A stretch of 64,000 nucleotides of DNA, taken from assembly GCF_024741795.1 (NCBI RefSeq), contig NZ_CP102950.1, forward strand, positions 1,674,001 to 1,738,000, given 5' to 3'. Every line of letters begins with the position of its first letter. The stretch's first letter is position 1. The position numbers and the translations under genes are program-made. Positions 21,307 to 31,352 of the stretch are shown here, piece by piece. The notes beneath the pieces are model-generated. The model did not search any database. It saw only the letters and a program-made list of their open reading frames with translations, and was not told the DNA's origin. Origin of the DNA: Arthrobacter sp. CJ23 (GTDB taxonomy: Bacteria; Actinomycetota; Actinomycetes; Actinomycetales; Micrococcaceae).

Positions 21307-21663
21307 GCCCCAAGCCAGCGCTTTCGGCCCCAGGCGGGTACGAACCCTAACCCAGCGTTGAGCGGAGCCCTACCGGGGTGCGCCAGCCCCACCACCACCC
21401 GCCGCAGCTCGGGCAGCCCGCGCAGGAATTTCCTGGGCACCCTTGAGTTGGCCGGGCTCTGGCACCAGCCGCGGAGCCTGCGAAGGAACCACGCGCAGCG
21501 CACGATAAAGGCCAGCCACAGCACCGAGAAGACCAGAGGAACCGCGGCCAGCAGGAGGTTCAGTCCCAGGGACGGCCCCACTGTAGCAAGGCAGCGCTGG
21601 ACGCCCGGGGGCTTCCTGCGCCGCCTTGCCGGAGCTGATCCGGCACCGAAGTAGGCTGGGCCC
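21307..21663. other. Intergenic region after the NUDIX gene, xerD expected but absent
   Basis: This 357-bp stretch separates two NUDIX genes. The first part has short imperfect repeats of CCAAGCCAGCGCT. On the minus strand an open frame reads through 21663 to about 21300. It contains one clear hydrophobic segment (NLLLAAVPLVFSVLWLAFIV, about 21500-21560) followed by basic residues. It has no ribosome binding site and its start would overlap the next gene's start region, so I do not call it a gene. It may be a remnant of a membrane protein. Confidence 0.4.
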
Positions 21664-22179
21664 ATGACTGCCGTACACGTGACCCTTTGCTTCCTGCTCC
21701 GCGACGGTGTGGACGGGCAGGAAGTGCTGCTCGGAACCAAGAAGACCGGCTTCGGGAGCGGCAAAGTGGTGGGCGTCGGGGGACACCTGGAAGTGGGGGA
21801 GACGGCCCTTGAAGCGGCGTGCAGGGAAGTGCACGAGGAAGTCCATGTCACCGTGGTCCAGCAGGACCTTGTGTTCGCCGGGACGGTGGACTTCGTGTTC
21901 CCCCGCAGGACCGAGTGGAACATGTTCACCACGGTCTTCCTGACCGGGAAATGGGAGGGCGAACCCTCCGAGAGCGATGAAATCGCGCCCCGCTGGTACG
22001 GCGTCGAGACGCTGCCCGTTGAGCAGATGTGGGCCGACGCGGAGCACTGGCTGCCGGCCATGATTTCAGGCCGGAAGCTTGCCGTCAGGGTGGTCCTGGC
22101 TGACGATAACGAGAGCGTCGCCGAGGTCCACACCTCCGTCTGCGGGGATTCTGCGACGGGCCTCCAGCCGGGGCTCTGA
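21664..22179 (+). CDS. MutT-like NUDIX hydrolase
   Basis: This 171-residue protein has a textbook NUDIX box, GHLEVGETALEAACREVHEEV. The pattern TLCFLLRDG..EVLLGTKKTGFGSGKVVGVGG before it and WNMFTTVFLTGKWEGEPSESDEIAPRWYGVETLP after it resemble MTH1-like 8-oxo-dGTP diphosphatases. These remove oxidised nucleotides from the pool. The substrate is an inference from the family. The last 30 residues are not conserved as far as I can judge. This gene opens the accessory region. Confidence 0.88.
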   Translation: MTAVHVTLCFLLRDGVDGQEVLLGTKKTGFGSGKVVGVGGHLEVGETALEAACREVHEEVHVTVVQQDLVFAGTVDFVFPRRTEWNMFTTVFLTGKWEGEPSESDEIAPRWYGVETLPVEQMWADAEHWLPAMISGRKLAVRVVLADDNESVAEVHTSVCGDSATGLQPGL

Positions 22180-22514
22180 CCCCCTTCGGCAGCTTCGCCG
22201 CTTGGCCCCGCGCTTACCTGCTTGCCGCCCGCCGATTCGTGGCCAAGTAGTACCCGTCTTTTCCGGGAGTGCTACTTGTTAATCGATTTTCTCCCGAAAA
22301 TTCGGCCTAACTGAGAGTTGGCAATCGTTATTTGCCGACAGCTCAGGCTTGCTTTCCCGATTCCAGGTGTATGGTCTGTGCTGTACGGACCAGGGAGCTG
22401 GGGAGCTGCCCGTTCAATGTTGTCACGGGGACAGGCACATTGAACTCGAGACAACTGATAGAAGCGCCGGACTGACTGGCGCTTTTTGGGGCCATCAGTT
22501 TCCCGGGAGATGTC
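22180..22514 (+). other. Structured 5' region of the giant surface-protein gene
   Basis: This 335-bp gap has no gene. It holds a short hairpin TTTTC-TCCC-GAAAA (22287-22300), a long hairpin at 22412-22445 and a terminator-like hairpin at 22462-22490. The sequence between 22180 and 22280 shows no feature I can name. The two downstream hairpins look like a regulated leader. Confidence 0.5.
22412..22490 (+). promoter_or_regulatory. Candidate attenuator: hairpin followed by terminator-like hairpin
   Basis: GTTCAATGT (22412-22420) and ACATTGAAC (22437-22445) pair perfectly, with an inner TGTC/GACA stem and an ACGGG loop. Next, AAGCGCC (22462-22468) pairs with GGCGCTT (22478-22484), followed by a T run to 22488. 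This second hairpin has terminator form and lies only 24 bp before the start codon at 22515. It matches no riboswitch class I know. Confidence 0.45.
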
Positions 22515-25500
22515 ATGAGACATGCAGCATCCCGCCGGCGTCCTCTACGCCGCGGTTTCGTCACCATTTTTTCAGCCCTGGTCCTGGCCATCGCCGGACC
22601 CTACGGCCTCATGTCACCAGCCTTCGCCGCCCTTCCAGGGCACACCGCAGGCGGCGACTTCACCAAGTTTGAAATCGAAGGACCGGGCGGTGCAAACCGC
22701 GCCGGGACGAACGACTGGGCCGGCATTGCAGCGGCACCCTATGGGCCGTACACCACCGCCCAGGGCCGGCAATCCACGGGCATTGTTGGGTACCGGAACA
22801 TGCCCGACGCTTGTGGAGCCGTGACCGACCCGAGCCAGGCCGTGGGCGGCACGCACCTCGACGATGACTGGGTCTTCACGCCAGGCGCGATTTCGCCCAC
22901 CAAAGCGGATCTATGCGGGTCCGAGATGGCCTACGAGATTGTCAACGTGGCGGGCCAGCTGCACTACGTGCTGTACATGGACTGGAACCGGGTGCCGGGC
23001 AACAGCGGCGTGATGAACACCTACTTCACCGTCAACGGACCCTTCGATCCGACCCCAGGTAATCCCTTCAACAAGGACGGCCGGGCGGACGACAAGCTCG
23101 TCCGCTTTTTCCACACCGAGGGGGGCGGCGGCGCCAATGCGGTGGGCGTCGGGACTTGGAACGGCAGTGCCTGGGTATTCTCGGATGTCACGGCTCTGGC
23201 CGGTACCCAGCCGGGAGTTGATGTACCCACCAATGCCATCTTCGGCGAACTGGCCATCGACCTCACGGCCTCAGGCGTCCTGCCGCAGGACGTGTGCGGC
23301 ACGGTTGCCCTGGGCGGCGTGCTGACGGATCCCGGCGGAGGCAACCCCACGCTGAAGGACCTCCTGCAGCCTGCTTCCCCCTTGACGATCAACACCTGTT
23401 CCAGCATCAGCATCACCAAGGAATCAAACCCTGCCGGCCTCACCGGAGCCGATGTCTTCGGGTACACGCTGGACCAGGCAGACCAGCAGGACGCGTTCGG
23501 CCCTGACCTGACGGTGCAAGGAACCGGTGCAACCCTGGACCAGCCGGATCCGGCGATGATCACCTCGGCCATCAAGGTGGGTGAAACCCACATCTGGAGC
23601 AATGTGCTCGCGCAGCCGGACTACCGGCTCCGGGAAACCACCTTGCCCGCAGGCTGGGCATTGGTCAGCGTCAAATGTACGTGGTGGGATCCATTCGCCT
23701 TGCCCTCGGGAGTGCTGCGTACCCAGGAAGTCGTGACCGCCAACCTGAACAACGTCACCCAGCTCTTCCAGGTTCCGCCCAGCGGGGTGGACAACGGAGT
23801 CCAGACATCCTGTGTCATCACCAACGAATCCTCCGGCGTCGTCATCAACAAGACCGGTGCGGGCAACACCAATACGGTGTTCAACTTCGATGTCACGGGC
23901 AAGGGATCCATCCCGCTGACGCTCGGGGACAGCTCGGGACTGTTGGCCTTCACCCCGGGAACCCAGGTTTCCATCAGCGAGCTGGTTCCTGCCGGGACGC
24001 CCAGCTGGGTCCTGCAGGGCATCGTCTGCCTTGACGGGCAGCAGCAGCCGGTAGGAACGGTCGCAGGTTCATCGGTCGGCTTCGCCACAATCGGCGGACA
24101 GATCATCACTTGTACGTTCACCAACAACCAGAACGGCCAGATCGTCGTCGCAAAGGATGGCCGCGGCAAGACCGCCACGGACACCTTCGGCTTCGACACC
24201 ACCTACGCGAACAACGCCGCCGCTCCGGACGGAACGGCAGAGTTCTCGCTGCAGATCGGACAGTCCAACGCCTCGCCGAACCTGGCACCGGGTGCCTACA
24301 CGATCGCCGAGCTCCTGACGGCAGCGAACACGCAATACGATCCCGACTATGCGCTGGTGAACATTGCCTGCGTCATCACCATCACGGGTTCGGGCGGATC
24401 CACCGCCACCGGTTACGTGCAGGGCAATCTGTCGACCACGGTGACCCTGGCCGCGGGCGACGCCGTCACCTGTACCTTCACCAATGACCAGCAGGGCCGC
24501 CTGATCGTCAAGAAGGCAACCACCCTCCGGGACGGCACGTTCAGCTTCGACGGACGTGACAGCCAGAACACCCAGCTGATCAACGGCAACATCACCACCG
24601 TGAACAACGTCACAGAGGCGGGCGATGAGCTCAGCAATGACGTCAACCCCGGCGTGTACTCCGTCACCGAGTCCACCTCCGAGCTGTACTGGAGCAAGGT
24701 CTCGGCCACCTGCGTGGACGGAACCACCCCGCTCGCCGGAACGGCCTTCGACCCGGCCACCGGGGCCTTGAGCAACATCAACATCCTGCCTGGGCACATT
24801 GTCACCTGTACCTTCACCAACGCGAAGCAGACAGCCAACGTCAAGGTGGCCAAGCAGCTGACGCCGGCAGCCGATCCGGGCAGGTTCGATCTGAACATCA
24901 ACGGCGTGCCGCAGGGCAGCCCCGGCGGAGTGGGCAACGGATTCGTTTCCAACCCGGCCGTGGTGGTTGTCCTCGGTGAAAGCGTCACCGTCTCCGAGGC
25001 GGCCCACGCTGGCACCAACGGAAGTTGGTACTCATCCGTGCTGGTCTGCGACAACGGAATTGTGCCGGCGAACAACACCGGGATGTCCGGCAACTTCACC
25101 GTCACGTCCCCGGACGTGACCGTCACCTGCACCTTCCAGAACACGCGCAAGTCGGCCCAGCTGACCCTGACCAAGGAATGGGTCAATGGGCGGGCGGGCG
25201 ACCAGGCGTCGCTGGGTGCCGCCGGAAGCAGCGGGCTGTCGCCCGACGCCGCCGGAAGCTCCACGGCACCGGCCACCACCACGCCAGCCGTGCTCACGGT
25301 CTACGCCGGCGAAACGGTGAACCTCGGGGAGGTCCTGGCTCCGGCCAACGTGGGCTCCTACGCCACCTCGCTGAGCTGCGCGGGTGCCGATGGGCTGAGC
25401 TACACCCCGCCGGCCCCCACCGGCAGCTACGCGGTGCCGCCCACGCCGGCCGCCGTGACGTGCACGTTCACCAACACGCGCACCAGCGCGGTTCTGACGC

Positions 25501-28500
25501 TCCAGAAGCACTGGATCAATGGCGCACAGGGGGACACCGCCGATCTGGACATCACTGCCCAGCTCGGACAGTCGCCCGCCGCCGGGGCCGCGTCCGTTGC
25601 CATCGGAAGCGCCCAGTTCGCGGACACCGCCAAAACCGTGACGGCAACCGTGCTGTCGGGGGAGACCGTCTCCCTGGCGGAAGCCCTCGGCGCCGGAAAC
25701 CTTGGTTCCTACACCTCCAGCCTGTCCTGCAGCGCGGCGGGCCTGAACCCGGAACCAACGCCGGGACTGAATGGTGCGTACACCATGCCCAAGACCGCTG
25801 CGCCGGTCACCTGTACCTTCACCAACAACCGGACCAGCGTCCAGCTGACGCTCGAAAAGGAATGGATTGACGGGGCAGACGGCGACCGGGCCGTCCTGGG
25901 TGCGGCGTCGACGTTCCCGGGGCTCCCGGAAGGGTCTGAATCCAACGGCCTCCCGGGCAGTGAAGTCGATTCCCCGGTCAAGACCGTGACGGTTCTCTCC
26001 GGCGAAACCGTGGGGCTGACCGAGTCCCTCGATGCGGCCAACGACGCGGCCTACGCCACCTCGCTGCTCTGCACCGGCGCCCCTCTGACATACCAGGGTG
26101 GTGCCCTCTCGGGCAGCATCGTGGTACCGAAGGCAGCCACCGGGGACATCGTCTGCAGGTGGACCAATGAGGCAGGCCGCGGCACCATCGTGATCGTCAA
26201 GAACGTGGAAGGAGCCGACGGCACCTTCGACTTCAGCGGAAACTGGGTCGACCCCGAAACGGGCACCCCGGTCAACAACTTCCAGCTGACCACGGACAGC
26301 GGCACCAGCAGCCGGACATGGACCGGTGTTGTGGTCCCCAAGGACGGCAGCCCGTTCACGGTCACGGAAATGGATCCGACGCCCGGGTATGACGGCACCA
26401 ATCTGGTGTGCTCCGGCAACCTTGCCGGAGACACCAGCTCGGCCCAGGGCCTGGTGGGCACCATCGACCTCGATCCAGGGGAGACGGTGACGTGTACCTA
26501 CACGAACACGCAGCGCTCCACGATCGTGATCGTCAAGGACGCCGTTCCGGACGACGACCAGGACTTCACGTTCAGCGCCACCGGAAGCCCGCTGCCGCCG
26601 TCGTTCATTCTCGACGACGACGCGGACGGCACCCGCTCCAACACCTTCACGTCAGCACTGCTGCCGGCCAAGCAGCCGTACACGGTCAATGAAGTGGCAG
26701 TGCCGGGATGGACGCTCGACCTGGCCGCCTCCGCCTGCAGCAACCAGGTTGCGGTAACGGCCAACGGCGTCTCCCTGACCCCGGCTCCGGGGCAGACCAT
26801 CACCTGCACTTTCGTCAACCGTGCGGCCCCGGGAACCATCCAGGTGACCAAGTCGGTTGAGGGCGTCGCGGATGACTACGCTTGGACCTTCGACATCTCC
26901 ATCTCCCCGGTGGAAGCCGGAGCGACGAGCCCGCAGGAAGCTTCGGGCACCGGAGACGGCGGCGACACCGTTTCGTTCGCCCCGCTGGTCCTGAACAAGC
27001 AGTACACCATCACGGAGGAAGAACCGGCTGCCGGCTGGACCCAGGGCGCAATCACCTGCTCCACCGGTGCGGATGAGAACCCGCAACTGGCCGGCTTCCA
27101 GGTGACCATCACCCAGCCGGGCCAGCTGATCACCTGCGGCCTCGTCAACACCGCCGCACCCGCCGACGTCGAGGTCACCAAGACGGTCACCGGCGTCCTT
27201 CCGGACTACGCCTGGTCCATCCCGTTCACCATCTCGCCCGTTCCTGACGGCGAGACGGGCACCAAGAACGCGACGACGGCGGACCCGACCGTTGGGTGGG
27301 AAGGCCTGCTGACCGGTGAAAGCTACAGCATCACCGAACAGGTCCCCGCAGGCTGGACGGGCGGAACCATCACCTGCACGGTCACGCATGCCGACGAGTC
27401 CACCGAGGACGTCGGGAACACCATCCTGGTGGAGGCCGGCGACGGCATCGCATGCGCCGTCACCAACGCGGTGCTGCCCGGCGAACTGACCATCGTCAAG
27501 ACAGCGGTTGGCGGCAACGGCTCGTTCGACTTCACCATCACCGGGGAAGAGAACGGCGTCGAAACCGAGGAAACCATCGTGACGGCGGACGGCACCGGGA
27601 CGGCCACCGTGGCCCTCGTCCCCGGCGTCCACTACACGGTCAGCGAGGTGAACCCGGGCTCCGGCTGGACGATGGGACAGCTCAGCTGCACGCTCAACGG
27701 ACACGCAGTGGGCATCCCGTTCACTGTCGGACCGGACGCAGACATCGGCTGCGCCATCACCAACACGGCCAAGGGCAGGATCGTCATCGTCAAGAACGTC
27801 GACGGCGCCGATGGCACCTTCGGCTTCAACGGCAGCTGGACGTCCGGAACCCCGGCCCTGGCTGACGGCGGCTTCGACATCACCACCGAGGAGGGCACCG
27901 GAAGCCAGACGTTCATGGACGTCCTGCCCGGCAGCTACACGGTGGCCGAGGACAGCCCCTTCCCGGCCTACCTGTCTCGTGTGCTGTCCTGCTCGGACTC
28001 CATGGAAAGCGGAACCGCCAGCACCACCGATGGACCGAACAGGACGGGCAACATCAAGCTGGATCCGGGCGAGACGGTGACCTGCGTGTTTGAAAACACC
28101 CAGACCGCCACCGTCATCGTCGACAAGGAATCCGTTCCTGCGGCCGACCCAGCAGTGTTCGCCTTCCAGTGGTTCCTGCCCAACAGCGAGTTCGGTGAGA
28201 CCTTCACCCTGACGGACACCCAGGAACCCAAGGTGTTCACCGGACTCAACCCGGCCCAGGACTGGGGCGTCACTGAAATGGCCGAAGACGGCTGGCGGCT
28301 CCTCGGGCTTGAATGCCTCAAGGGCGGCGAGGTGTTCAACGGCGCCACTGTCCACGGAACGGAGGCGATCCTGAACCCGGCACCGGGCGACGTGATCAGC
28401 TGCACGTACACCAACGGCAAGCGCGGCCCCGTGGACATCAGCAAGACCGTCACCAGCGGACCGGTCAAAAACGCCGATTCGAGCTACACAGTGACGTACA

Positions 28501-29378
28501 GCATCAGGGTCAGCTCGGCGTCGTTTGTCACCGAACAGTACAAGCTGACGGACAAGCTGGCCTTTGGCGACGGCATCACCGCCACCGAAGCCAGTGCGGC
28601 CAGCACAGATGCTTCGGTCAATCCCGACTGGAACGGCACCACGGTCACGCATCTGACCGCGGCGCCGGTCACCATCGACCCGGATGCGGTCCACACCTAT
28701 ACGGTGACCACCACGTCCACGATCGCCCCGGCAACAGGATCGGATGCCAGGGATTGCACCCTCGGGGAGGGAGATGACGGCACAGGCTTCCTGAACAAGG
28801 TGGAACTGACCGTGGTTGACGGCACAGGCGGTGAAGCCGAAGCCTGCGTTTCCGCGCCGGACGAGGCCGACGTGGCCGTCGTCAAGACCGGTACCGAAAA
28901 GGTCCTGCTGCCCAACAAGGGCGGCTCGGCAGCGATTTCCTACACCCTCAGAGTGACCAATAACGGTCCCACCGAGGCCAGGGACGTCGTGGTCAAGGAC
29001 ACCATGCCGGCCGATGTCACGGCGGACGCGCTCGCTCCGTCCGCCGGAAGCTGCATCAATTCTGCAACGTCGTTCATCTGCAACCTTGGCCTGATGGCCG
29101 TGGGACAGGAGATCACCATCGGGGTCAAGGCTTCGATCACCGACTACATGGGCAATGGCCCGTTCACCAACGTAGCGGTGGTCACCACCTCAACCCCTGA
29201 GACCGTGACCGGCAATAACAGGGCCACGCACGTGACCACGGTGGAACGTGCGGCGCTCGCCGCCACGGGCACCGGAGTCACCGCGTGGTTCTGGCCGGCT
29301 GCGGCCCTGCTGTTGATCGGGACGTTGCTGGTCGTCGCCGTCAGGCCCAAACGGCGGCGGGCCTTCCGGACCGCATAG
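22515..29378 (+). CDS. Giant multi-module (CnaB-like/DUF11) cell-surface protein with LAATG anchor
   Basis: This is a secreted protein of 2287 residues. A signal peptide (RRRPLRRGF, hydrophobic core, cleavage after AFA at 38) leads into a unique N-terminal domain (residues 39-296). Fifteen modules of about 100-145 residues follow (from about 297 to 1968). Each starts with a strand ending in Lys (ITK, VVK, LTK; first Lys302), has a middle Glu (VTE, ITE, VSE) and ends with C-x-x-x-N (CTFTN; last Asn1967). This is the CnaB/DUF5979 prealbumin-like pattern, where Lys and Asn can form an isopeptide bond helped by Glu. Each module also keeps two cysteines. Two DUF11-like repeats follow (1969-2240). 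The C-terminus has LAATG (2248-2252), a membrane segment and KRRRAFRTA, as expected for a sortase E substrate. It is probably an adhesin or stalk, but ligand and role are unknown. Confidence 0.9.
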   Translation: MRHAASRRRPLRRGFVTIFSALVLAIAGPYGLMSPAFAALPGHTAGGDFTKFEIEGPGGANRAGTNDWAGIAAAPYGPYTTAQGRQSTGIVGYRNMPDACGAVTDPSQAVGGTHLDDDWVFTPGAISPTKADLCGSEMAYEIVNVAGQLHYVLYMDWNRVPGNSGVMNTYFTVNGPFDPTPGNPFNKDGRADDKLVRFFHTEGGGGANAVGVGTWNGSAWVFSDVTALAGTQPGVDVPTNAIFGELAIDLTASGVLPQDVCGTVALGGVLTDPGGGNPTLKDLLQPASPLTINTCSSISITKESNPAGLTGADVFGYTLDQADQQDAFGPDLTVQGTGATLDQPDPAMITSAIKVGETHIWSNVLAQPDYRLRETTLPAGWALVSVKCTWWDPFALPSGVLRTQEVVTANLNNVTQLFQVPPSGVDNGVQTSCVITNESSGVVINKTGAGNTNTVFNFDVTGKGSIPLTLGDSSGLLAFTPGTQVSISELVPAGTPSWVLQGIVCLDGQQQPVGTVAGSSVGFATIGGQIITCTFTNNQNGQIVVAKDGRGKTATDTFGFDTTYANNAAAPDGTAEFSLQIGQSNASPNLAPGAYTIAELLTAANTQYDPDYALVNIACVITITGSGGSTATGYVQGNLSTTVTLAAGDAVTCTFTNDQQGRLIVKKATTLRDGTFSFDGRDSQNTQLINGNITTVNNVTEAGDELSNDVNPGVYSVTESTSELYWSKVSATCVDGTTPLAGTAFDPATGALSNINILPGHIVTCTFTNAKQTANVKVAKQLTPAADPGRFDLNINGVPQGSPGGVGNGFVSNPAVVVVLGESVTVSEAAHAGTNGSWYSSVLVCDNGIVPANNTGMSGNFTVTSPDVTVTCTFQNTRKSAQLTLTKEWVNGRAGDQASLGAAGSSGLSPDAAGSSTAPATTTPAVLTVYAGETVNLGEVLAPANVGSYATSLSCAGADGLSYTPPAPTGSYAVPPTPAAVTCTFTNTRTSAVLTLQKHWINGAQGDTADLDITAQLGQSPAAGAASVAIGSAQFADTAKTVTATVLSGETVSLAEALGAGNLGSYTSSLSCSAAGLNPEPTPGLNGAYTMPKTAAPVTCTFTNNRTSVQLTLEKEWIDGADGDRAVLGAASTFPGLPEGSESNGLPGSEVDSPVKTVTVLSGETVGLTESLDAANDAAYATSLLCTGAPLTYQGGALSGSIVVPKAATGDIVCRWTNEAGRGTIVIVKNVEGADGTFDFSGNWVDPETGTPVNNFQLTTDSGTSSRTWTGVVVPKDGSPFTVTEMDPTPGYDGTNLVCSGNLAGDTSSAQGLVGTIDLDPGETVTCTYTNTQRSTIVIVKDAVPDDDQDFTFSATGSPLPPSFILDDDADGTRSNTFTSALLPAKQPYTVNEVAVPGWTLDLAASACSNQVAVTANGVSLTPAPGQTITCTFVNRAAPGTIQVTKSVEGVADDYAWTFDISISPVEAGATSPQEASGTGDGGDTVSFAPLVLNKQYTITEEEPAAGWTQGAITCSTGADENPQLAGFQVTITQPGQLITCGLVNTAAPADVEVTKTVTGVLPDYAWSIPFTISPVPDGETGTKNATTADPTVGWEGLLTGESYSITEQVPAGWTGGTITCTVTHADESTEDVGNTILVEAGDGIACAVTNAVLPGELTIVKTAVGGNGSFDFTITGEENGVETEETIVTADGTGTATVALVPGVHYTVSEVNPGSGWTMGQLSCTLNGHAVGIPFTVGPDADIGCAITNTAKGRIVIVKNVDGADGTFGFNGSWTSGTPALADGGFDITTEEGTGSQTFMDVLPGSYTVAEDSPFPAYLSRVLSCSDSMESGTASTTDGPNRTGNIKLDPGETVTCVFENTQTATVIVDKESVPAADPAVFAFQWFLPNSEFGETFTLTDTQEPKVFTGLNPAQDWGVTEMAEDGWRLLGLECLKGGEVFNGATVHGTEAILNPAPGDVISCTYTNGKRGPVDISKTVTSGPVKNADSSYTVTYSIRVSSASFVTEQYKLTDKLAFGDGITATEASAASTDASVNPDWNGTTVTHLTAAPVTIDPDAVHTYTVTTTSTIAPATGSDARDCTLGEGDDGTGFLNKVELTVVDGTGGEAEACVSAPDEADVAVVKTGTEKVLLPNKGGSAAISYTLRVTNNGPTEARDVVVKDTMPADVTADALAPSAGSCINSATSFICNLGLMAVGQEITIGVKASITDYMGNGPFTNVAVVTTSTPETVTGNNRATHVTTVERAALAATGTGVTAWFWPAAALLLIGTLLVVAVRPKRRRAFRTA

Positions 29379-29396
29379 TGCGGAAGTGCCTAACGG

Positions 29397-29422
29397 ACCG
29401 CCTGCAGGTTCCTGCAGGCGGT
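29397..29422 (+). terminator. Hairpin after the giant surface-protein gene
   Basis: A perfect 12-bp inverted repeat (ACCGCCTGCAGG / CCTGCAGGCGGT) with a TT loop begins 19 bp after the stop. It is followed by CTGTTGCG, which is T-poor. It probably ends the transcript, separating the surface protein from the sigma-factor operon. Confidence 0.65.
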
Positions 29423-29436
29423 CTGTTGCGTCCGGA

Positions 29437-29460
29437 CACATTGTTGGACAAATTGTTGGA
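29437..29460 (+). promoter_or_regulatory. Tandem 12-bp direct repeat upstream of the ECF sigma gene
   Basis: CACATTGTTGGA (29437-29448) is followed at once by CAAATTGTTGGA (29449-29460), with one mismatch. It lies about 90 bp before the sigma start. It could be a regulator site or part of an autoregulated promoter. Confidence 0.4.
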
Positions 29461-29550
29461 GAAATTCCCGGGCAGAGGTGTAAGAAGACGCCTCGGACGG
29501 GACACTTAGTCATTAAAAGTGGGGTCATCCGGAGGATCGGGGGATAAGCC

Positions 29551-30057
29551 ATGCTGGCTGCCGATGAGCACGAATTCCTTGCCTTGCACACGCAGCATTT
29601 CACTCGCGTTTACCGCTACATCGCCTACCGCATCCAGGACCAGTCCCGGGCCGAGGAACTCGCGGCGGACGTTTTCCGGATCGCGTGGCAAAAGCGCTCG
29701 GCGGACGCCCCGGGCATCGGCTGGCTCATCGCCACCGCCCGCAATGTGCTTGGCAACGAGTACAAGGGACGCCGCCGCCAGCAACAATTGCGGGAACGCC
29801 TGGAAAGCGAGGCGCGCCTACGGCAGGACAGCGACGCCGGCTCCACCGTGCGGCAGGAGGTCGCCGAGGTCCTGACCCAGTTGAGCGAGCGGCACCGGGA
29901 GGTGCTCATGCTCAGCTATTGGGACGATCTCACCACCGCGGAACTTGCTGAAAGCCTCGGCTGCTCTGTTTCCGCCGCCGGGGTCCGACTGCACCGCGCC
30001 CGGCAGGCCTTCGCCAGGATTTCCCCCGCACACCTGATGACCGAACGGAAGGGCTAG
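29551..30057 (+). CDS. ECF-type RNA polymerase sigma factor
   Basis: This 168-residue sigma-70 family protein has only regions 2 and 4. Region 2 is FTRVYRYIAYRIQDQSRAEELAADVFRIAW (residues 16-45). Region 4 is LSERHREVLMLSYWDDLTTAELAESLGCSVSAAGVRLHRARQAF (residues 111-154), with a clear helix-turn-helix. The next gene starts 2 bp after its stop and encodes a membrane protein with an N-terminal cytoplasmic part, so this is probably a sigma/anti-sigma pair. The giant surface protein just upstream is a natural candidate target, but no shared promoter motif was proved. Confidence 0.92.
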   Translation: MLAADEHEFLALHTQHFTRVYRYIAYRIQDQSRAEELAADVFRIAWQKRSADAPGIGWLIATARNVLGNEYKGRRRQQQLRERLESEARLRQDSDAGSTVRQEVAEVLTQLSERHREVLMLSYWDDLTTAELAESLGCSVSAAGVRLHRARQAFARISPAHLMTERKG

Positions 30058-30059
30058 CC

Positions 30060-31352
30060 ATGGACCGCATCGAGCAGCTCATGAAGGATGCACGGCCACA
30101 CGTGGATGAACCGCAGGCCGCCGCGGGATTCGAATCGGCCCGCTCGATCGTCTTCAGCGACGATCCCAATGTTGTGTCCCTTGCAGTACGCAGGCAGCGC
30201 AGGCCGGCGCGCCGCACCACGGTCCGGGCGGCTGTCGGCGCACTCGCCGCCGCCGCGGTCCTTGCCGCCGCAGTCGTGGTCGGCGGAAATCTGTTGGCAC
30301 AGCCCACGCCGTCGCCCGCCCAGACCGGCACGCCGACACCGCTCCATACCTCCACGGCCGGCCCCACGCCGACGCCGACGGCGAGCGTGCCGCCCGTCCT
30401 GACGAGCAACGGGGTGGAGTGCACGGTGGCCAACATCGACCAACAGCTCAATGACCAGCGGCGGGCCATCGCACCGATCCCGGCGGCGGACCAGAAGTAC
30501 TACACGGTGCTGGGTTGCGCCGAGGGCTGGCTGGCCTACTCCGTTTCCGACGAGGGCGCCATGGCCCTCCAGTTGGACGGCGGCAACGCCTGGTATCTGA
30601 TCGCCAGGCTGCAGAACGGCCGCTTCCTCAGCGACTTCCAGCAGGAATGGTCCAGCGTCTTCAGCTGGAAGTTCCAGGCGCTGAGGAACGACGTCTCGCA
30701 GAATGGCCAGGTCCTCGCGCCGCAACAGGCCATGGACCAGGAGTTCGCCGTCAAGGGCATCCCCGTGGAGCTCCGGCCACAACTTGTGGGGGAGGCGCCC
30801 GGTCCGGACGCGCTGGGCGGAAGCCGCTTCGAGCTCCACTCCCAGGGCTACACAATGGGCTTCGACTACGCCGACGCCTTCACCGTCCAGCACACGCCCG
30901 GCACGGATCCGGACGGGGAGCTGTCCTTGCAGGTCCTGGACAGCGCTGGCAAGAGCACGGCGAAGCTGGTCTTCGGAGCGTCGGCGGGCATGGACCCGGG
31001 CATCTCCTGCGGCCCCGGCGGCAACTTCGAAATCCTTGAGTCCGTGCCGCTCCAGGAGTCTCCGGACGCTGCGGCCCGGATGGTCTACGGGGTCTTCAAA
31101 GGGGAGCAGCTGTACGGGGCGCTGTTGCTGGCCCGGGTGAGCGGTGCGGGCAGCGCGGAGTGCACCTTGACTCCTGTGCAGCTGGGCGGACTGAAACTCA
31201 CGTTCGGCACCGGGATCCAGCGGTCCGACGCCGGCGCCGGTGCCGGCTGGGTGTTCGCAGACGTGGAGGCGGCCAAAGCCTGGCGGGCCACGGAACGCTA
31301 TAACCAAGTGGCCACGCTGCTCGCTGCCTTGCGGGTGGCGCCGCAGGGTTGA
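30060..31352 (+). CDS. Membrane-anchored putative anti-sigma factor
   Basis: This 430-residue protein has a cytoplasmic N-terminus of about 54 residues (MDRIEQLMKDARPHVDEPQAAAGFESARSIVF). One membrane segment (residues 55-80, Ala/Val rich) follows, then a Pro/Thr linker (TPSPAQTGTPTPLHTS) and an extracytoplasmic domain of about 320 residues that I do not recognise. No zinc HxxxCxxC motif is present, so it is not a ZAS-type anti-sigma. The layout and the 2-bp spacing from the ECF gene suggest it holds the sigma factor inactive and senses something outside the membrane. It could instead be an unrelated exported protein in the same operon. Confidence 0.65.
   Translation: MDRIEQLMKDARPHVDEPQAAAGFESARSIVFSDDPNVVSLAVRRQRRPARRTTVRAAVGALAAAAVLAAAVVVGGNLLAQPTPSPAQTGTPTPLHTSTAGPTPTPTASVPPVLTSNGVECTVANIDQQLNDQRRAIAPIPAADQKYYTVLGCAEGWLAYSVSDEGAMALQLDGGNAWYLIARLQNGRFLSDFQQEWSSVFSWKFQALRNDVSQNGQVLAPQQAMDQEFAVKGIPVELRPQLVGEAPGPDALGGSRFELHSQGYTMGFDYADAFTVQHTPGTDPDGELSLQVLDSAGKSTAKLVFGASAGMDPGISCGPGGNFEILESVPLQESPDAAARMVYGVFKGEQLYGALLLARVSGAGSAECTLTPVQLGGLKLTFGTGIQRSDAGAGAGWVFADVEAAKAWRATERYNQVATLLAALRVAPQG

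Follow-up and report, generated by a model that had tools for sequence, protein, structure and literature searches.

A 15-module surface protein of Arthrobacter sp. CJ23 whose stalk is probably cross-linked twice in each module

In a window of 64,000 nucleotides from Arthrobacter sp. CJ23 (NZ_CP102950.1, positions 1,674,001 to 1,738,000; coordinates below are those of the window unless stated otherwise), the open reading frame (ORF) at 22515-29378 on the plus strand encodes a giant surface protein of 2287 residues with an ATG start. It contains an array of 15 modules (about residue 295 to 1968), each with a lysine, a glutamate, two cysteines and an asparagine in the order K-E-C-C-N, and residue conservation and covariation indicate that both an isopeptide bond and a disulfide very probably form in the modules. 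We consider it likely that the product is a fibrillar adhesin which an Arthrobacter-like actinobacterium secretes and anchors to its wall, with a doubly cross-linked stalk of 15 SpaA_4/SpaA_3 modules. The protein runs from a signal-peptide-like start through an N-terminal domain of about 256 residues, the 15 modules, a DUF11-like domain and a DUF11 domain to an LAATG motif, after which come a hydrophobic segment and a basic tail. Its cysteines total 38, with 4 assigned to the N-terminal domain, 30 to the modules and 4 to the two C-terminal domains.

Module alignment places the modules and their cross-link residues, all on the plus strand, as follows: M1 (residues 295-438; 23397..23828) with K302, E374, C388, C433 and N437; M2 (23829..24128) with K446, E489, C505, C533 and N537; M3 (24129..24488) with K547, E599, C619, C653 and N657; M4 (24489..24824) with K667 (the adjacent K666 is possible), E719, C733, C765 and N769; M5 (24825..25145) with K780, E828, C845, C872 and N876; M6 (25146..25478) with K887, E939, C955, C983 and N987; M7 (25479..25829) with K998, E1056, C1072, C1100 and N1104; M8 (25830..26171) with K1115, E1170, C1186, C1214 and N1218; M9 (26172..26510), the best SpaA_4 stretch, with K1229, E1285, C1299, C1327 and N1331; M10 (26511..26822) with K1341, E1393, C1408, C1431 and N1435; M11 (26823..27152) with K1446, E1501, C1515, C1541 and N1545; M12 (27153..27470) with K1556, E1608, C1621, C1647 and N1651; M13 (27471..27767) with K1662, E1711, C1725, C1746 and N1750; M14 (27768..28100) with K1760, E1812, C1826, C1857 and N1861; and M15 (28101..28418) with K1871, E1921, C1934, C1963 and N1967.

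The five residues each occupy one MAFFT column in 15/15 modules at a median pairwise identity of 22%, and they are the only columns identical in all 15, with one glycine column at 14. In a second, separate alignment, Lys, Glu, a Gly, the second Cys and Asn were invariant and the first Cys nearly so. The glutamate lies within [VIL]xE in mid-module, and the second cysteine stands exactly four residues upstream of the asparagine, in all 15 modules. An earlier control with 20 shuffles gave a best single column of any letter with 10 to 15 identical residues, so a K/E/N/C-specific control was used; across 40 residue-shuffled and realigned module sets, no K, E, N or C column reached 14/15, which rules out a chance alignment of the cross-link residues. 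The module features described in the first-pass annotation, namely 15 modules with a Lys/Glu/Asn set and two cysteines each, the [VIL]xE segment and the C-x-x-x-N ending, are thus borne out. Among the matches listed, the closest relatives are proteins of Arthrobacter cavernae (86% identity) and Pseudarthrobacter sp. J64 (65%) and a third at 66%. Each of these three (P0002, P0003 and P0004) has 15 modules and keeps 75/75 cross-link residues, while the remaining module Lys, Glu and Asn are kept at 20/21, 41/55 and 66/74 in P0002, 13/21, 32/55 and 37/74 in P0003, and 13/21, 37/55 and 38/74 in P0004. Divergence is greatest in the N-terminal domain and first two modules (38-48% identity to P0003 and P0004); M3-M15 are 63-85% identical.

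Pfam searches with the whole protein returned SpaA_4 (PF24514; 303.5 bits against a cut-off of 27.3, E 8.7e-92, 14 stretches) and SpaA_3 (PF20674; 91.2 bits, cut-off 24), and all 10 of the 15 modules for which individual SpaA_4 scores were listed lie above the cut-off. An AlphaFold2 (AF2) model of M9 and M10 predicts a CnaB-type beta-sandwich fold (predicted local distance difference test score, pLDDT, 93.5), and the ends of structural alignments place the lysine and asparagine on residues that form isopeptide bonds in known structures. Searched against the PDB, the module profiles find CnaB-type pilins and adhesins (best E 1.5e-7), with fibronectin and chance-like rows lower; a PDB sequence search with the whole protein gave no match. 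In the profile alignments listed, which cover a minority of the matches, no PDB chain has a cysteine at the first-cysteine position. Together with the coevolution described below, the Pfam scores, predicted fold and structural alignments support the earlier proposal that Lys-Glu-Asn is a CnaB-type triad.

For a family-wide view, the 7988 candidate proteins with the most shared words were scored, 993 proteins matched, and the best 120 (giant protein included) were used; 27 more proteins and the ORFs of 23 loci enlarged the set to 1990 module matches, redundancy between proteins and locus ORFs being removed only through a mid-ORF match (5 of 1273 dropped). A first tally, whose profile was built from the window modules and therefore favours K/E/C/C/N, found Lys in 1568, Glu in 1576, the first Cys in 1584, the second Cys in 1585 and Asn in 1585 of 1591 modules with both ends (72 of 1663 rows left out). 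The five columns were masked in the later profile, and the resulting column tally (92 of 1990 rows left out) counted the triad and both cysteines in 1768 of 1898 modules, the cysteines only in 71, the triad only in 34 and neither in 25. Because this tally contains register slips, with M1 and M10 of the window scored as losing a cysteine, we instead counted cysteines between Lys and Asn. Among the 1771 of 1990 matches with both of these residues in place (219 left out), 6 modules contain no cysteine, 2 contain one, 1714 contain two, 3 contain three and 46 contain four. The number is even in 1766/1771 modules, so module cysteines occur as pairs. The 46 modules with four cysteines perhaps hold a second disulfide.

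Coevolution separates the residues into the same two sets. Mean-field direct coupling analysis of 1933 modules (57 of 1990 left out; effective number 1530) ranked 5671 residue pairs, among which K-E came first, C1-C2 fourth, E-N fifth and K-N sixth. Pairs across the sets ranked far lower (E-C1 75, E-C2 118, K-C2 203, K-C1 243, C1-N 659), their couplings being far weaker yet not nil; C2-N, four residues apart, falls below the separation limit of the analysis. With seven of the proteins that lose Lys and Glu removed, the ranks were K-E 1, C1-C2 4, E-N 7 and K-N 12, with cross pairs from 37 to 407, and in rows ungapped at the five columns (416 of 1990 left out) they were K-E 1, K-N 2, E-N 3 and C1-C2 5, with cross pairs from 47 to 184. 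The two positions add up to the same value in couplings 77-105 and 75-107, the pattern of antiparallel strand neighbours, and differ by the same value in couplings 6-102, 8-104 and 10-106, the pattern of parallel ones. Since coupling is much stronger within than across sets, the residues fall into two units, the catalytic triad on one side and the paired cysteines on the other, which suggests that isopeptide and disulfide are kept and lost separately. Parity and C1-C2 coupling together also argue that the two cysteines noted earlier in each module act as a pair.

Starting from the predicted fold, we infer the following course for bond formation, stiffness, load path, anchoring and adhesion. 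After export, the 15 SpaA_4/SpaA_3 modules would fold as CnaB-type beta-sandwiches; in each, the first-strand lysine would be joined to the last-strand asparagine with the glutamate as catalyst, and a disulfide would link two neighbouring antiparallel strands, its second cysteine four residues before the asparagine. Each module's last strand would lead with hardly a break into the first strand of the following module, and the resulting rod would be stiff, with very little slack. In the AF2 model the last strand of M9 (103-112) directly precedes the first strand of M10 (114-122), and the spacing between an Asn and the following Lys measures 9-11 residues at 14/14 junctions of the giant protein and at 1448 of 1480 junctions of the family set (10 or 11 in 1408); we read these short, constant junctions and abutting model strands as a stiff rod. 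All 15 cysteine pairs lie between the lysine and asparagine of their own module, and 1518 of the 1665 chain steps from K302 to N1967 lie inside closed loops if the isopeptides form. With every pair inside such a loop, the module disulfide should bear no load. Pulling force would pass from Lys through the isopeptide to Asn and over 9 to 11 residues to the next Lys, so that about 91% of the stalk chain and all module disulfides would be shielded; the disulfides may instead serve folding, thermal and proteolytic stability, and provide a backup wherever an isopeptide fails. The proposal that the stalk is locked twice per module therefore holds in the chemical sense but probably not in the mechanical one. 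A disulfide beside the reactive asparagine and junctions of constant length raise the questions of whether the disulfide is mechanically silent and whether it speeds isopeptide formation.

Residues 1-38 (22515..22628, plus strand) were judged by eye to be a signal peptide region, with cleavage near SPAFA/ALPGH. At the other end, on the same strand, the two DUF11-type domains would form the base of the stalk. The first, DUF11-like by eye and without a Pfam match (residues 1969-2118; 28419..28868), contains K1977, D2013 and N2094, kept in 4/4 aligned homologues (giant protein included) and a possible isopeptide set, as well as the cysteine pair 2081/2111. The second (residues 2119-2245; 28869..29249) matches DUF11 (PF01345) at residues 2119-2238 with 62.5 bits (cut-off 24.6) and contains the cysteine pair 2180/2189 and K2124, D2162 and N2219, which are conserved in 4/4 aligned sequences and assigned as a triad by their spacing relative to the published CLIPPER triad. 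This domain thus resembles CLIPPER (DUF11), as treated in passages of PMC12617251, in its PF01345 match and in K/D/N at similar spacing; the disulfide described there for CLIPPER belongs to a CTTC motif of its final strand, whereas here the cysteines are C2180 and C2189. As both C-terminal domains also keep a Lys/Asp/Asn set and one cysteine pair each, the giant protein could contain as many as 17 isopeptide bonds and 19 disulfides. The LAATG class-E-type sorting motif (residues 2248-2252; 29256..29270, plus strand) precedes the hydrophobic segment and basic tail; the NCBIfam LAXTG model scored 20.1 bits, under its cut-off of 65. LAXTG signals are described in part of PMC5148588 as substrates of class E sortases, and the genome encodes two sortases, one of class E (248.3 bits, cut-off 160) and one of class C adjoining a SpaH/EbpB-type pilin, both more than 1.6 Mb from the giant gene (class C at C1:3649486, more than 1.9 Mb away). 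A class E sortase would attach LAATG to the wall. With a signal peptide (by eye), a repeat stalk, a sorting motif and a matching class E sortase in the genome, the protein is most likely a class-E-sortase-anchored fibrillar adhesin. The genome also has one VKOR and three Thioredoxin_4 matches, consistent with extracellular disulfide formation.

The N-terminal domain (residues 39-294; 22629..23396, plus strand) contains C100, C134 and C261, with C295 just beyond, and was modelled by AF2 at pLDDT 81; it is plausibly a binding head, which would be displayed outward. Pfam gave nothing above cut-off for this domain, its fold matches are weak, and its profile has a single PDB match (E 0.93). The first-pass annotation called the domain unique, which does not stand: it is present in 63/120 proteins among the matches listed, giant protein included, and represents a sizeable shared family. 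It was found in 3 of 149 genomes of the taxonomic family, two of them as partial weak matches, and only in this genome among the 121 genus genomes sampled. One Arthrobacter cavernae locus (L038, contig59) encodes a further, diverged protein that combines two modules with a portion of the head domain (27% identity). Another reading makes the giant protein a carbohydrate-binding surface protein whose CBM9/DOMON-like head tethers the cell to polysaccharide of plants or soil; this is possible if doubtful, and a literature search for CBM9/DOMON adhesins gave nothing relevant among the papers listed. More speculatively, and rather unlikely as a whole, SpaA_4 arrays might be an architecture of their own in which the disulfide pins the Asn-bearing strand (K-E-C-C-N), so that VKOR/DsbA-type oxidative folding sets up the isopeptide reaction, the 10-11-residue junctions might make the rod almost inextensible, leaving about 9% of the chain loaded, and the head might belong to an undescribed sugar-binding family common to many actinobacterial stalks.

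Some observations speak for rival readings with a single structural bond. The analogous disulfide of SpaA is described in excerpts as only partly formed, the Mobiluncus structure (in passages of PMC10619420) has its disulfide modelled at partial occupancy, and six family modules, confined to two proteins, lack cysteines altogether. Conversely, of 1574 rows with no gap at any of the five columns, 36 (modules from 12 ORFs) have lost Lys together with Glu, and all of these retain both cysteines (36/36), so a module can survive without its isopeptide; single losses are few (Lys alone 9, Glu alone 5). The modules without Lys and Glu sit in P0006, P0009, P0010, P0025, P0044, P0045, P0047, P0145 and ORFs of L020, L021, L024 and L025. 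The first three points would suit a structure held by the isopeptide alone, with cysteines that are typical of the family yet reduced or used in intermolecular links. This is improbable given the nearly universal parity of the cysteines, a C1-C2 coupling within the top five in all three runs, and the VKOR and Thioredoxin_4 matches of the genome; intermolecular links, moreover, would not need two cysteines per module. The converse, that the disulfide alone is structural and many triads are inert relics as in the relatives without Lys and Glu, seems to us very improbable: the triads are complete in 15/15 modules here and kept in three homologues, and K-E, E-N and K-N are strongly coupled. The remaining idea treats the protein as a pilin subunit that a pilus sortase polymerises, not as a single-chain adhesin. 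In its favour, SpaA-type domains are typical of pilins, and the class C sortase of this genome adjoins a SpaH/EbpB-type pilin. We reject it because the giant protein has LAATG and neither a YPK pilin motif nor LPXTG, holds 15 modules within one chain, and has no sortase near its gene.

Related bacteria are already known to have doubly locked modules, and the giant protein is a clear new example, not a new type of system. The earlier view that isopeptide modules usually lack disulfides, and that this protein is therefore unusual, is not supported: passages of Costa et al. 2025 (PMC12617251) report predicted disulfides in 41.3% of Actinomycetota isopeptide domains, and SpaD, FimP and a Mobiluncus adhesin have both bonds in one domain. 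According to the same passages, SpaA_3 and SpaA_4 domains are predicted to form isopeptide bonds, and disulfides are prevalent in SpaA_2, SpaA_3 and SpaA_4; the giant protein belongs to their SpaA_4 (PF24514) and SpaA_3 (PF20674) families and has the K/E/N triad in a tandem array, as described there for fibrillar adhesins. For the giant adhesin of Mobiluncus mulieris, with 51 Ig-like domains (PDB 5u5o/5u6f), sections of Young et al. 2023 (PMC10619420) show both bonds in a solved structure. There C6887-C6895 connects strand 2 with strand 5 at the far end of the domain from the K6842-N6955 bond, whereas here the second cysteine lies four residues before the asparagine; ester bonds and a putative thioester head are further features of that adhesin. 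In excerpts on the Corynebacterium diphtheriae SpaA/SpaD and Actinomyces FimP pilins, isopeptide and disulfide share one CnaB C-terminal domain, as is probable for the modules here, but the residue order is K-C-C-E-N in SpaD (332-352-402-406-450) and K-C-C-E-D in FimP (363-385-449-452-Asp487) rather than K-E-C-C-N, and these are polymerised pilins whereas we read the giant protein as a single-chain adhesin. Less expected in the giant protein are the K-E-C-C-N order, the disulfide inside the isopeptide loop and the constant junction length. It offers a very regular, testable case, from an Arthrobacter-like bacterium, of stalk modules with two probable cross-links each, and such modules may serve as very stable protein parts.

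The giant gene is an accessory that few genomes carry. Of 396 genomes sampled across the phylum, 30 have SpaA_4, 25 of them above the cut-off. A promoter and terminator scan gave nothing above chance. In 4/4 genus relatives (L067-L070) the gene order is recN, CTP synthase, NUDIX, a recombinase that from its motifs we take to be XerD-like, an extracytoplasmic function (ECF) sigma factor and a partner of the 430-residue type, with a second NUDIX gene beyond; in the window (21307-29550) the position of the recombinase is taken by the second NUDIX gene together with the giant gene. A XerD-like gene is found at E <1e-120 in 58 of the 61 genus genomes searched, and many genus genomes show a second, XerC-like match near 40% identity among the matches listed. 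This genome (one contig, a dnaA-like ORF at its start, completeness 100) is among the three without, its best XerD match being a 377-residue integrase-like ORF (27% identity, E 5e-8), and the genome of L038, of the species Arthrobacter cavernae that also has a giant protein, gave no XerD-like match. Window positions 29551-31352 hold the ECF sigma factor and then the 430-residue protein with one hydrophobic segment, which has no Pfam or NCBIfam match; by eye it resembles an anti-sigma factor, and it finds matches in 56/121 genus genomes, this one included.
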